Positions 12,305-51,735 of a stretch of 64,000 nt of DNA are shown piece after piece. How positions within the stretch are numbered: position 1 is the first letter of the stretch; every line of letters begins with the position of its first letter. The notes beneath the pieces are model-generated. The model saw only the letters and a list, made by a program, of their open reading frames with translations, had not been told where the DNA came from and ran no database searches. Source of the DNA: Lentzea guizhouensis (GTDB lineage: Bacteria; Actinomycetota; Actinomycetes; Mycobacteriales; Pseudonocardiaceae); the NCBI RefSeq assembly GCF_001701025.1, contig NZ_CP016793.1, positions 496,001-560,000 of the forward strand. The letters are read 5' to 3'. The translations under genes and the position numbers were made by a program.

Positions 12305-13237
12305 TCACACCAACCGCGCGCGAGCGGCCTCGACCGAGTCCGCCGCGTCCAGCAACGGCAGCACCGCGGAAGCACCCGACCGCACCGCCTTCGTGCGCCG
12401 CGCGAACGACGTCAGCGTCTGCCCGGGACCCGCCTCCACCAGCAGCACGTCGTACATCGCCACCAGCTCGTTCAACGCGGGCCCGAAGTACACGGCGTCG
12501 GTCAGCTGCCGCGTCCAGAACCGCGCCGACAACGCGTCCGCCGCGGTCATCAGCTGACCGGTGTACCCCGAGTACACCGGCATCTGCGGGACGCGGGGCG
12601 ACACGTTCCACGCCGCCAGCGCTTCATCCACCGCGGGCTGCATCGCCGGGCTGTGGAACGGCGTGGAAGCCGGCACCGTCACCACGATGTACTCGTCGGC
12701 CTCCAGACGTGCCCGCACCCGTGCCAACGGCTCGTCCGACCCCGCCAGCATGGTCTGCCGCGCCGAGTTCACCGCCGCGATCGCCACGTCGCCTTCCAGG
12801 TACGGCACCAGGTCCGCCTCGGACGCGGCGACGGCCAGCATCCCGCCGGACGGGATCGACACCGCCGACACCACCCGGTCCCGCACCAACGACACGGCTT
12901 CGTCCACGGTGAACACACCGGCCAAGGTCGCGGCCACGACCTCACCCGCGGAGTGCCCGATCAACGCGACCGGCTGGACACCCCACGACAACACCGTGCG
13001 CCCCAACGCGTAGTCGACCGCGAACAGCAACGGCTGCGCGCGCGACACGTGGTCGATGTCGTTACCTGCTAACCAATCCTCACAGGCAACGGACCCGACC
13101 TCGCCGAACAGCTCGAACACCTCGTCGATCACCGAGGTGAACACGGAGTCCGTGCCGTACAGCGATGCCGCCATCCGCGGGTACTGCGACCCCTGCCCGG
13201 GAAACATCAGGGCTACGTCCATCTGGGCAACATCCAC
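12305..13237 (-). CDS. Discrete malonyl/acyl-CoA acyltransferase
   Basis: A 310-residue free-standing acyltransferase. FPGQGSQ near residue 12 and the nucleophile Ser96 in GHSAGE mark the fold, with TPFHSP near 190 and the later VEAGPGQ. Such enzymes load extender or starter acyl groups onto ACP. A discrete AT is unusual for a simple type II PKS and recalls DpsD of daunorubicin, which supports non-acetate priming; the substrate cannot be read with confidence. GTG start with GGAGG seven bases upstream. Last gene of the PKS operon. Confidence 0.88.
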   Translation of the reverse strand: MDVAQMDVALMFPGQGSQYPRMAASLYGTDSVFTSVIDEVFELFGEVGSVACEDWLAGNDIDHVSRAQPLLFAVDYALGRTVLSWGVQPVALIGHSAGEVVAATLAGVFTVDEAVSLVRDRVVSAVSIPSGGMLAVAASEADLVPYLEGDVAIAAVNSARQTMLAGSDEPLARVRARLEADEYIVVTVPASTPFHSPAMQPAVDEALAAWNVSPRVPQMPVYSGYTGQLMTAADALSARFWTRQLTDAVYFGPALNELVAMYDVLLVEAGPGQTLTSFARRTKAVRSGASAVLPLLDAADSVEAARARLV

Positions 13238-13257
13238 GAGAAGCCTCCAAAAAGCGA

Positions 13258-13289
13258 CAGGGGCCGCGAGGAAGACCTCACGACCCCTG
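13258..13289 (-). terminator. Intra-operon hairpin between CLF and AT genes
   Basis: A 14-bp stem (13258-13271 with 13276-13289, two G-T pairs) with a 4-nt loop in the 63-bp gap between the chain-length-factor and acyltransferase genes. It may attenuate transcription into the AT gene or stabilise the upstream mRNA. Confidence 0.5.
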
Positions 13290-13300
13290 TGCGGGTGACA

Positions 13301-49717: not shown

Positions 49718-49755
49718 GGAAACGGCCGCCCCAAGCCTCCGGGGCGGCCGTTTCC
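49718..49755. terminator. Bidirectional hairpin
   Basis: Perfect 15-bp arms (49718-49732 and 49741-49755) with an 8-nt loop, between the convergent SRPBCC and ilvN genes. Confidence 0.88.
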
Positions 49756-49762
49756 CGTTGTC

Positions 49763-50029
49763 TCAGGCGCCGAGCTCGAGCGCCTCGTCGTCGGTGCGGT
49801 CGACGACGTTCTTCACGTCGACGATGCGGCTGAGCTGCTTGACGAGCTGGGCGGGCGTGCGGCCGGGTTGCAGGTCGACCACGACGTCGAGGCGGGACAG
49901 GTCGCCGCGGTCGGCCGGGCCGAGGCTCAGCGACTCGACGTCGACGCCGCGGCTGGAGAACAGCACCACGACCCGGGCCAGCGCGCCCGGCTCGTTGCGC
50001 AGCAGCAGGGAAAGCGAATGTCTGGTCAT
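49763..50029 (-). CDS. ilvN: Acetolactate synthase small subunit, short form
   Basis: An 88-residue ACT-domain protein (LLLRNEPGALARVVVLFSSRGVDVESLSL). Housekeeping actinobacterial IlvN is roughly twice as long; this resembles short IlvM/IlvN-type subunits, so feedback control by valine may be weakened. ATG overlaps the ilvB stop by ATGA. There is no ilvC next to it, which supports an accessory, cluster-dedicated enzyme. Confidence 0.88.
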   Translation of the reverse strand: MTRHSLSLLLRNEPGALARVVVLFSSRGVDVESLSLGPADRGDLSRLDVVVDLQPGRTPAQLVKQLSRIVDVKNVVDRTDDEALELGA

Positions 50030-51735
50030 CACTCTTCCTCGTCGAACAGGGGGCGGATTCCTCGTGCGGCCATGACCTCGTCGTTGCCGGTGCCCGCGGC
50101 GACCATCGGCCAGACCTGGGCGTCCTGTCCCACCACGAAGTCGATGACGACCGGCCGGTCGTGGACGGACATGGCCTCGAGGATGACGTCGTCCACTTCG
50201 GACTGGCTCGTGCACCGCAGGCCGACGCAGCCCAGCGCCTCGGCGAGCTTCACGAAGTCCGGGTGCCGGTCGTGGGTGCCGAGCCGGGTGTTGGAGTAGC
50301 GGCCGTCGTAGAACAGGGTCTGCCACTGCCGGACCATGCCGAGGTTGCCGTTGTTGATGATCGCGACCTTGATCGGGATGCCCTCGGCGGCGCAGGTGGC
50401 GAGCTCCTGGTTGGTCATCTGGAAGCAGCCGTCGCCGTCGATCGCCCACACCGTGCGGTCCGGGACGCCGGTCTGCGCGCCCATCGCGGCGGGTACGGCG
50501 AACCCCATCGTGCCGGCGCCGCCGGAGTTGATGAACGAGCCGGGGCGTTCGTAGCGGACGTACTGCGCGGCCCACATCTGGTGCTGGCCGACGCCCGAGG
50601 TGTAGACGGCCTCGGGGCCGGCGAGGGTGCTGAGCCGTTCGACGACGTACTGCGGGGCGAGCGAACCGTCTTCCGGGTGGTCGTAGCCGAGCGGGTAGGT
50701 GGTGCGCAGACCGTCCAGGTAGGACCACCACGCGGTGAGGTCGGGGACGTGGCCGACGACCGCGTTGAGCGCGGCGAGCACGTCGCGGCAGTCGCCCACG
50801 ATGCCGACGTCGGCCTTGCGGTTCTTGGAGATCTCGGCGGGGTCGATGTCGGCGTGCACCACCGCGGCGTGCGGGGCGAAGTGCGGCAGCGACCCGGTGA
50901 CCCGGTCGTCGAACCGGGTCCCCAGCGCGATCAGCAGGTCGGCCTTCTGCAGGGCGGCCACGGCGGGCACCGTGCCGTGCATGCCCGGCATCCCCAGGTG
51001 CTGCCGGTGCGAGTCGGGGAACGCGCCGCGTGCCATCAGCGTGGTGACGACCGGGATGCCGGTCTTGTTGGCCAGCTTGAGCAGTTCCGCCGCGGCGCCG
51101 GAGCGGACCACTCCCCCGCCGACGTAGAACACCGGCCGTTGCGACGTTCCGATGAGCTGCGCGGCGTTGCGGACCTGCACCGGCGAGAGCACCGGCCGGG
51201 ACGCTGCCGTGATCTGGGGCGGCGTGTAGGTCGTGGCGGCAGCGAGCACGTCCTTGGGCAGGTCCACCAGCACCGGGCCCGGCCGTCCCGAGGAAGCGAG
51301 CTGGAACGCCTCGGCGATCACCCGCGGGATGTCGGCGGGGTCGAGCACCTGGAAGCCGTGCTTGGTGATCGGCAGCGTGATGCTGCGGATGTCCGCCTCC
51401 TGGAAGGCGTCCGTGCCGATCACCGACCGGCTGACCTGGCCGGTGATCGCCACGATCGGCACGGAGTCCATGTACGCGTCGGCGAGCGGGGTGACCAGGT
51501 TCGTCGCCCCCGGACCCGACGTCGCCATGCACACGCCCACCCTGCCGGTCGCCTGCGCGTACCCCTGCGCGGCGTGGCCCGCCCCCTGCTCGTGGCGCAC
51601 CAGCACGTGCCTGATCTTCGAGTCGAACAGCGGGTCGTACGCGGGCAGGATCGCCCCGCCGGGCATCCCGAAGATCACCTCGCAGCCCACGTCCTCAAGC
51701 GCCTTGATCAACGCACCTGCACCGGTGGTCTCCAC
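50029..51735 (-). CDS. ilvB: Acetolactate synthase large subunit
   Basis: A 568-residue ThDP enzyme joining two pyruvates to 2-acetolactate (first step to valine). Visible are GAGALIKALEDVGCEVIFGMPGG-type N-terminal segments, the FAD region and the ThDP motif IDGDGCFQMTNQELATCA...NNGNLGMVRQ. GTG start. Set 20 bases after the second SARP gene on the same strand, so it may be co-transcribed with that activator. Together with the valine-type A domain it suggests precursor supply for the pathway. Confidence 0.94.
   Translation of the reverse strand: METTGAGALIKALEDVGCEVIFGMPGGAILPAYDPLFDSKIRHVLVRHEQGAGHAAQGYAQATGRVGVCMATSGPGATNLVTPLADAYMDSVPIVAITGQVSRSVIGTDAFQEADIRSITLPITKHGFQVLDPADIPRVIAEAFQLASSGRPGPVLVDLPKDVLAAATTYTPPQITAASRPVLSPVQVRNAAQLIGTSQRPVFYVGGGVVRSGAAAELLKLANKTGIPVVTTLMARGAFPDSHRQHLGMPGMHGTVPAVAALQKADLLIALGTRFDDRVTGSLPHFAPHAAVVHADIDPAEISKNRKADVGIVGDCRDVLAALNAVVGHVPDLTAWWSYLDGLRTTYPLGYDHPEDGSLAPQYVVERLSTLAGPEAVYTSGVGQHQMWAAQYVRYERPGSFINSGGAGTMGFAVPAAMGAQTGVPDRTVWAIDGDGCFQMTNQELATCAAEGIPIKVAIINNGNLGMVRQWQTLFYDGRYSNTRLGTHDRHPDFVKLAEALGCVGLRCTSQSEVDDVILEAMSVHDRPVVIDFVVGQDAQVWPMVAAGTGNDEVMAARGIRPLFDEEE

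Follow-up and report, generated by a model that had tools for sequence, protein, structure and literature searches.

In a 64,000-nucleotide stretch of the Lentzea guizhouensis genome (the window; G000:C1:496001-560000 within 9,997,872 bases), the genes of a type II polyketide synthase (PKS) lie in and around a conserved set of genes for a ribosomally synthesized and post-translationally modified peptide (RiPP) and its regulators. The order of this module is SARP1, precursor peptide, E1/YcaO, front protein, HK1, RR1, SARP2, HK2 and RR2, where E1/YcaO is a cyclodehydratase fusion, HK1 comprises two histidine kinases in one chain, and the remaining members are SARP, kinase and response regulator genes. 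Our best reading is that the module is regulatory and appears to house the PKS as a client in Lentzea and at least three other lineages. Specifically, we propose, with a probability of roughly 55%, that a YcaO-modified, pheromone-like peptide is sensed by HK1 and would control SARP1 and the PKS operon behind it. At the level of sequence, five observations bear on this proposal: the order of the module, its occurrence with and without the PKS, its linkage to the PKS in four lineages, candidate operators, and covariation of the core peptide with HK1.

Within Lentzea, we compared 39 window proteins with 29 YcaO neighbourhoods and recounted the matches. Of the 52 query proteins in all, one (ADHzn) contained an internal stop introduced when it was cut out. 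YcaO is present in all 24 Lentzea genomes compared, and SARP1, E1-YcaO, the front protein, HK1 and RR1 recur in 23 of 23 same-genus relatives. In 22 of the 23, the stretch from -8.5 to -2.1 kb relative to YcaO carries the acyltransferase (AT), chain-length factor (CLF), KS-alpha, HMGL-like protein, aromatase/cyclase (CYC) and acyl carrier protein (ACP), and KASIII-a is near the cassette in an equal number. SARP2 marks the right end in 17 of 22 PKS-bearing relatives; G014 has no SARP2 in 45 kb, and the stretches of G002, G018, G008 and G009 end earlier. In the 17 PKS-bearing relatives reaching SARP2, the PKS genes sit at two points of the module, behind SARP1 and between HK1 and SARP2. The loading module is optional, with its KASIII present in 10 of 23 relatives (68-92% identity).

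One Lentzea genome (G019, matched to Lentzea sp. NBRC 105346) carries the module by itself. SARP1, E1-YcaO, the front protein, HK1, RR1, SARP2, HK2 and RR2 follow one another within ~10 kb between the same flanks with no PKS, and a more distant CLF is found elsewhere in the genome. A flank-gene tree of 20 genomes sets G019 apart at a midpoint root; the PKS may never have been present there or may have been lost. The flanks consist of a dihydrolipoyl dehydrogenase-like gene, a 2-oxoacid dehydrogenase acyltransferase gene and a lipoyl ligase (lipB-like) gene on the left and a lipoyl synthase (lipA-like) gene on the right. The lipB-like and lipA-like genes flank the island, whose insertion site lies between these two lipoate genes.

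Outside Lentzea, the module again occurs in both states. All six front-only genomes of other genera with a full neighbourhood carry the module and lack a KS or CLF match within 20 kb; they are two Amycolatopsis, one Umezawaea, one Actinokineospora, one Saccharothrix and G099, which has the same genus label as the Saccharothrix. Four of these six loci have weak matches (25-38%) to the A domain and KASIII within 20 kb, and three also to the peptidyl carrier protein (PCP), so that another cluster may be nearby. PKS-bearing loci were found in three further lineages. Actinomycetospora sp. NBRC 106378 (G058) has KS-alpha at 83%, CLF at 74% and P450 at 81% identity, together with a more diverged cassette (YcaO 52%, front 34%), SARP, histidine kinase and response regulator genes, and a rearranged gene order. 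G315, with a Pseudonocardia genus label, has the same combination on two contigs that break inside E1-YcaO; in both G058 and G315, YcaO, front, kinase, SARP, ACP, ketoreductase (KR) and CYC genes all run in one direction. G407, from another order, has KS-alpha (76%), CLF (70%), KR (73%), SARP (57%), E1-YcaO (53%), a response regulator (61%) and a histidine kinase in ~50 kb, with a full-length SagB-type protein where the others have the front only.

An accidental neighbourhood was rejected, as the linkage of PKS and cassette is kept in 22 of 23 Lentzea relatives and three further lineages. The preliminary description of this DNA, which took the region for either two products with shared regulators or a peptide-polyketide conjugate, had named failure of the combination to recur in other genomes as grounds for abandoning the idea; the combination does recur. 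It had also proposed searching for co-occurrence of the KS-alpha type with the YcaO type. In our comparison of CLF and front protein across 390 family genomes, all 25 with a CLF of 74% or higher had a front/SagB-family match, compared to 97 of the remaining 365, although 23 of the 25 are Lentzea and independent events are few. Outside the genus, the family co-occurrence is weak (2/2 versus 96/364, p = 0.07), with front-family matches there including full SagB proteins. A draw of 393 further genomes from the class gave one with a CLF at E ≤ 1e-170, namely G407, which also carries the cassette.

Every genome that we found to have a CLF of at least 70% has the cassette. CLFs of 72-88% also occur in metagenome and metagenome-assembled genome records, and CLFs of ~71% in Actinocorallia and Streptomyces isolates, all of them compared by CLF sequence only. 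The next CLF relatives, G329 (matched to Prauserella shujinwangii; CLF 66-67%) and G374 (64%), have no front match anywhere in their genomes, and G329 has no YcaO match in the 40 kb around its PKS. Two loci fit neither pattern, in that the DNA preceding their front match gives no YcaO match: Pseudonocardia sp. TRM90224 (G309; L157/L158) and Streptomyces pilosus (L115).

We next consider the covariation of the peptide with its putative receptor. The core was predicted as everything after the FDREASMD-like motif. For 19 of the 24 genomes (15 where HK2 was needed), we set the distances between cores against the corresponding distances for each protein. G014, G008, G009, G016 and G019 were left out because their precursors could not be aligned to the window's. 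Across the 19 genomes, the core correlated most strongly with the two membrane units of HK1 (TM-A, r = 0.81; TM-B, r = 0.76; p = 0.0005, the floor of 2000 permutations), and partial correlations given SARP1, E1, the front protein and the kinase-A parts of HK1 remained at 0.73 and 0.65. Corresponding values were 0.56 (partial 0.24) for E1, 0.39 (0.17) for the front protein and 0.66 (0.39) for YcaO, which must also bind the core. Since E1, YcaO and the front protein are encoded between the precursor and HK1, physical linkage predicts the opposite order. The core hardly followed its own leader (r = 0.12), SARP1 (0.28), KS-alpha (0.25) or RR1 (0.27), and does not follow KS, CLF, AT or ACP.

The membrane part of HK2, which is as diverged (mean 0.37), served as a control and gave r = 0.23 in 15 genomes. 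Against a background of SARP1, E1, front, YcaO, HK1 kinase and HK2 in those genomes, TM-A kept 0.51 and TM-B 0.35. In a scan of 118 60-residue segments from 13 proteins, with near-invariant segments dropped, the top 11 by r all belonged to HK1. Removing five genomes with near-duplicate cores (14 left) placed HK1 in the first 8 of 117 segments, with a best r of 0.58 compared to 0.41 for YcaO. The G022 core is the closest to the window's own, and the same holds for TM-B (distance 0.26, compared to 0.43 for the next genome), whereas the window's E1 is closest to that of other genomes.

HK1 and RR1, which the preliminary description did not mention, thus appear to be the key to the locus. HK1 has two HisKA_3 stretches and one passing HATPase_c stretch by Pfam, two H boxes, two N boxes, and two groups of four hydrophobic segments, its membrane segments being taken from a plain hydropathy scan. 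In type-A relatives its H-box domains are 85-97% identical to the window's and its second membrane unit mostly 51-57%, rising to 75% in G022; the 84% for G021 belongs to a second HK1 copy. RR1 identity is 76-96% across the 23 relatives and 76-82% across the six front-only loci of other genera, and an RR1-like regulator stands beside 10 of 12 SagB-type loci (not in G160 or G184; one of the 12, G058, is front-only). As in pheromone-kinase systems, precursor, modifier, membrane kinase and regulator share one conserved locus, and signal and sensor part diversify together by correlations that ignore kinship. As a separate observation, a second tandem kinase lies beside HK1 in G021 (L049/L050) and also in G007, G015 and G018. 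G021 has a peptide of another type, yet its second copy shares 86% identity with the window's HK1, as would be seen if duplication were how receptor types change.

A TGA-n5-TCA palindrome is conserved in each of the two divergent regulator promoters, whether or not a PKS is present. The candidate operator O1, between SARP1 and the precursor, consists of the inverted repeat GGTATGAA-AAC-TTCATACC (18986-19004) followed by GCATTAGCCGGTAACTACCG (19010-19029). Its chance expectation in the window is 0.01, and the genome holds one exact copy and one more with two mismatches. In type-A genomes this promoter reads GGTATGARAACTTCATAC and then GCRTTAnnnnGTAACTACC, and TGARAACTTCA or a near variant occurs in 28 aligned SARP1/precursor promoters, including those of other genera. 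The second candidate, O2 (TGAGAAATTCAT), lies between SARP2 and HK2. TGA-n5-TCA is found at the best-matching place in 26 of 26 SARP2 promoters, with up to four mismatches to O1; O2 rests on this conserved position because 1.34 chance matches are expected.

The 65-residue precursor has the leader motif DDMKIYxFDR and a core bearing W, S, T and C. Its homologue search returned 83 proteins including itself, those with organism names all being Lentzea; front-protein matches bearing organism names were also mostly Lentzea. As is typical of linear azol(in)e-containing peptides and thiazole/oxazole-modified microcins (LAP/TOMM), E1/RRE and YcaO adjoin a short precursor with a Ser/Thr/Cys core, and the optional FMN-dependent dehydrogenase is missing. 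The front protein has two RRE-like domains matching ThcOx residues 2-201 and ends after this part with no FMN domain, for which reason azolines rather than azoles are expected. Cys is absent from 6 of 19 cores, and heterocyclizable residues are few and variable. In the window, E1-YcaO is frame-broken near 19.81 kb, one frame covering residues 1-176 and another residues 177-753 of the relatives' single frame. In all 23 same-genus orthologues it occupies a single open frame, and seven of them read from E1 start to stop.

Separately, second E1-YcaO copies 40-60% identical occur in Lentzea at six loci in five genomes (G013:C135, G003:C22, G001:C38, G011:C18, G004:C13 and G011:C84). None has a front or PKS match alongside, and they were set apart. 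The five closer ones have small upstream open reading frames with several Cys.

Taken together, we suggest the following sequence of events. The leader would bind the RRE domains of E1-YcaO and the front protein, and YcaO would form one or more azolines in the Ser/Thr/Cys-bearing core. After leader removal and export by machinery presumably encoded elsewhere, the mature peptide would act as a secreted signal, with the two membrane units of HK1 as its sensors. Binding of RR1 to TGA-n5-TCA, both between SARP1 and the precursor and between SARP2 and HK2, might then feed back positively on the peptide. SARP1 and SARP2 would turn on the run from SARP1 to AT and the tailoring genes. By analogy with known pheromones, the peptide is probably a strain-type-specific inducer that diversifies together with its receptor.

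Several points weigh against this proposal. With its broken E1-YcaO, the window strain may make no peptide, or the assembly may be wrong there. The G019 module (24.9-34.8 kb) is tiled by identified genes from SARP1 to RR2 and has no room for an exporter or leader peptidase, a negative that covers the module and not the rest of the genomes. The permutations behind our p-values ignore phylogeny. Moreover, in 15 genomes other proteins had some partial correlation with the core (E1 0.46, YcaO 0.48, HK1 kinase part 0.38), as did the HK2 membrane part (0.26, p = 0.007) and SARP2 (0.27, p = 0.0045); KASIII-a did so at 0.23 (p = 0.005) in 19 genomes and 0.12 (p = 0.14) in 15. The window's YcaO also groups with that of G022, and part of the covariation between core and HK1 may reflect recombination. 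The operator core is short, giving three window matches at two or fewer mismatches where 1.34 are expected, the third of them inside YcaO. RR2 or the SARPs could be its readers instead of RR1. Finally, the covariation fits equally well a peptide antibiotic sensed by its own kinase.

That antibiotic is the main rival, and we consider it unlikely. Lantibiotics are known to autoinduce, the antibiotic peptide being sensed by its own kinase, and here shared SARPs would govern the polyketide as a second product. The candidate operator in front of the precursor is as compatible with this explanation as the covariation is, but the G019 module has no immunity or export gene, and the scarcity and variability of heterocyclizable residues, including the cores without Cys, argue against it. 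It is very unlikely that two independent products have only regulators in common, with HK1 sensing something else and the covariation being recombination or linkage noise. HK1 membrane segments do evolve fast and alleles were seemingly exchanged in blocks; for example, flank genes place G016 beside the window strain (100/99) and its YcaO falls in another allele group, an observation that also speaks for our own proposal. However, the correlation is lower for genes lying between precursor and HK1 than for HK1 itself, and HK2 hardly follows. Least likely is a conjugate in which a KASIII-like acyltransferase joins a polyketide or starter unit to the YcaO-modified peptide: the cassette accompanies every CLF of at least 70% in four lineages and the DpsC-like KASIII-a stays close to it, but the module lacks a PKS in six genomes of other genera and one Lentzea, the core ignores the PKS enzymes, and the full SagB of G407 implies different peptide chemistry beside a similar PKS.

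Of the two options in the preliminary description, shared regulators is therefore preferred over a conjugate, because the module occurs without the PKS and the core varies with the kinase sensor rather than the PKS enzymes; a cassette acting as a signal with its own receptor had not been considered. More broadly, and a little short of even odds, YcaO-modified peptides may be an actinobacterial pheromone class, with exchangeable types of peptide, enzymes and tandem kinase gating SARP-driven clusters, in Lentzea that of an aromatic polyketide, so that strains answer their own type. Many actinomycete antibiotic clusters are silent in culture. If our proposal is true, an encoded inducer with its own receptor, present genus-wide and in relatives, would offer an easy way of activating such a cluster, and YcaO peptides would join the known chemistries of bacterial pheromones. 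The signalling reading also offers a reason for a RiPP cassette within a polyketide cluster and warns against assuming hybrid products.

As shown in Table 1, the gene content largely agrees with the preliminary description. Gene families were assigned with Pfam and NCBIfam on window proteins. The minimal type II PKS with KR and aromatase/cyclase, as well as the stand-alone A domain, PCP and two KASIII-like proteins, are all present with matches far above chance. The cassette matches are also far above chance, with the caveats that SagB is represented by its front only and E1-YcaO is frame-broken. The named parts do lie together at 12305-51735, and the region extends further right through SARP2, HK2 and RR2 (51756-54961). 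KS-alpha has its Cys, and the CLF, whose closest PDB protein is the actinorhodin CLF, has a Gln aligned with the Gln of that protein; with the ACP, KR and cyclase, they make up a type II PKS. KASIII-a has DpsC as its best PDB match (335.8 bits), with a Ser-containing active-site stretch aligned.

Table 1. Features of the window and the basis of their assignment.
Feature	Position	Strand	Basis
lipB-like gene	7521-8249		
AT	12305-13237	-	Pfam/NCBIfam and conservation in relatives
KS-beta/CLF	13301-14515	-	NCBIfam, PDB match, genome comparison
KS-alpha	14512-15780	-	Pfam/NCBIfam; STGCTSG motif
Short HMGL-like (citramalate-synthase-like) protein	15777-16508	-	Pfam/NCBIfam
CYC, two Polyketide_cyc stretches	16699-17637	-	Pfam
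ACP	17663-17914	-	Pfam/NCBIfam
SARP1	18073-18909	-	Pfam and conservation
O1 (candidate operator), SARP1/precursor divergent promoter	18986-19029	.	Promoter alignment
Precursor peptide	19087-19284	+	Homologue search
E1-like (ocin-ThiF/RRE) and YcaO cyclodehydratase	19281-21541	+	TIGR03882 and TIGR03604 over cut-off
SagB/ThcOx front-only protein	21538-22209	+	ThcOx comparison
HK1, two histidine kinases in one chain	22219-24573	+	Pfam, motif and hydropathy scans
KASIII-a (DpsC-like)	24847-25905	-	PDB comparison
RR1, NarL/LuxR-type response regulator	26505-27161	+	
KR (SDR)	28405-29187	-	Pfam
Loading-module PCP	41945-42169	+	
Loading-module KASIII-b	42179-43219	+	
Loading-module A domain	43276-44757	-	
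SARP2	51756-52571	-	Pfam and conservation
O2 (candidate operator), SARP2/HK2 divergent promoter	52692-52703	.	Conserved position
HK2, single histidine kinase (control)	52891-54087	+	
RR2	54356-54961	-	
lipA-like gene	58112-59116		

The minus-strand run at 12305-18909 is ordered SARP1-ACP-CYC-HMGL-KS-CLF-AT in the direction of transcription, with SARP1 as its first gene. To the right of HK1 come KASIII-a, a WrbA-like protein, RR1, a ferredoxin reductase, KR, a ferredoxin and a hydrolase, and then P450s, short-chain dehydrogenases/reductases (SDRs), an epoxide hydrolase, major facilitator superfamily pumps, PCP, KASIII-b and the A domain. These are followed by an acyl-CoA-dehydrogenase/HsaA-like flavoprotein, a SnoaL-like protein, an acetolactate synthase, SARP2, HK2 and RR2. 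The HMGL-like protein at 15777-16508, between KS-alpha and the cyclase, shows 78-86% identity in 20 relatives and 41-42% in another two. The acetolactate synthase (50029-51735) is a full large subunit inside the PKS region, 78-91% identical in 17 relatives; with another genome copy at 4.297 Mb (72% identical), it may serve precursor supply or self-resistance. Many repeats of a short Pro-Ala-Cys-coding unit occupy 29530-30200, between the ferredoxin and alpha/beta hydrolase genes. Two small proteins flanking the loading module (41316-41771 and 44896-45369) have signal-peptide-like starts by eye and no Pfam family.

Our search of the published literature, which included PMC4603692 and PMC10352776 but few subscription papers or bioRxiv preprints, turned up no account of this module and none of a Lentzea locus combining a type II PKS with YcaO. 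Related systems share features with it. In the ComX/ComP and AgrD/AgrC systems, peptide signal and receptor diversify together. ComQXPA and Agr resemble the module in that a single locus encodes the precursor, its modifying enzyme, a multi-pass membrane kinase and a response regulator, and signal and sensor co-diversify. The Lentzea locus differs in using an azoline-forming YcaO and RRE proteins for modification, in having its kinase pair fused and in containing two SARPs and a PKS, and its signal role and export are predictions. The E1-YcaO fusion and the short precursor, with its leader and Ser/Thr/Cys core, recall LAP/TOMM RiPPs, whereas the front protein without FMN dehydrogenase, the SARPs and two two-component systems, and the lack of a transporter in the module set it apart. 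The PKS, with KS-alpha, CLF, ACP, KR, CYC, AT and a DpsC-like KASIII, resembles the daunorubicin type, but is set in and around a RiPP-regulator module. Finally, the PKS-RiPP hybrids lipolanthine and goadvionin are acylated peptides whose loci likewise combine PKS and RiPP genes, whereas the RiPP module described here also exists without the PKS.

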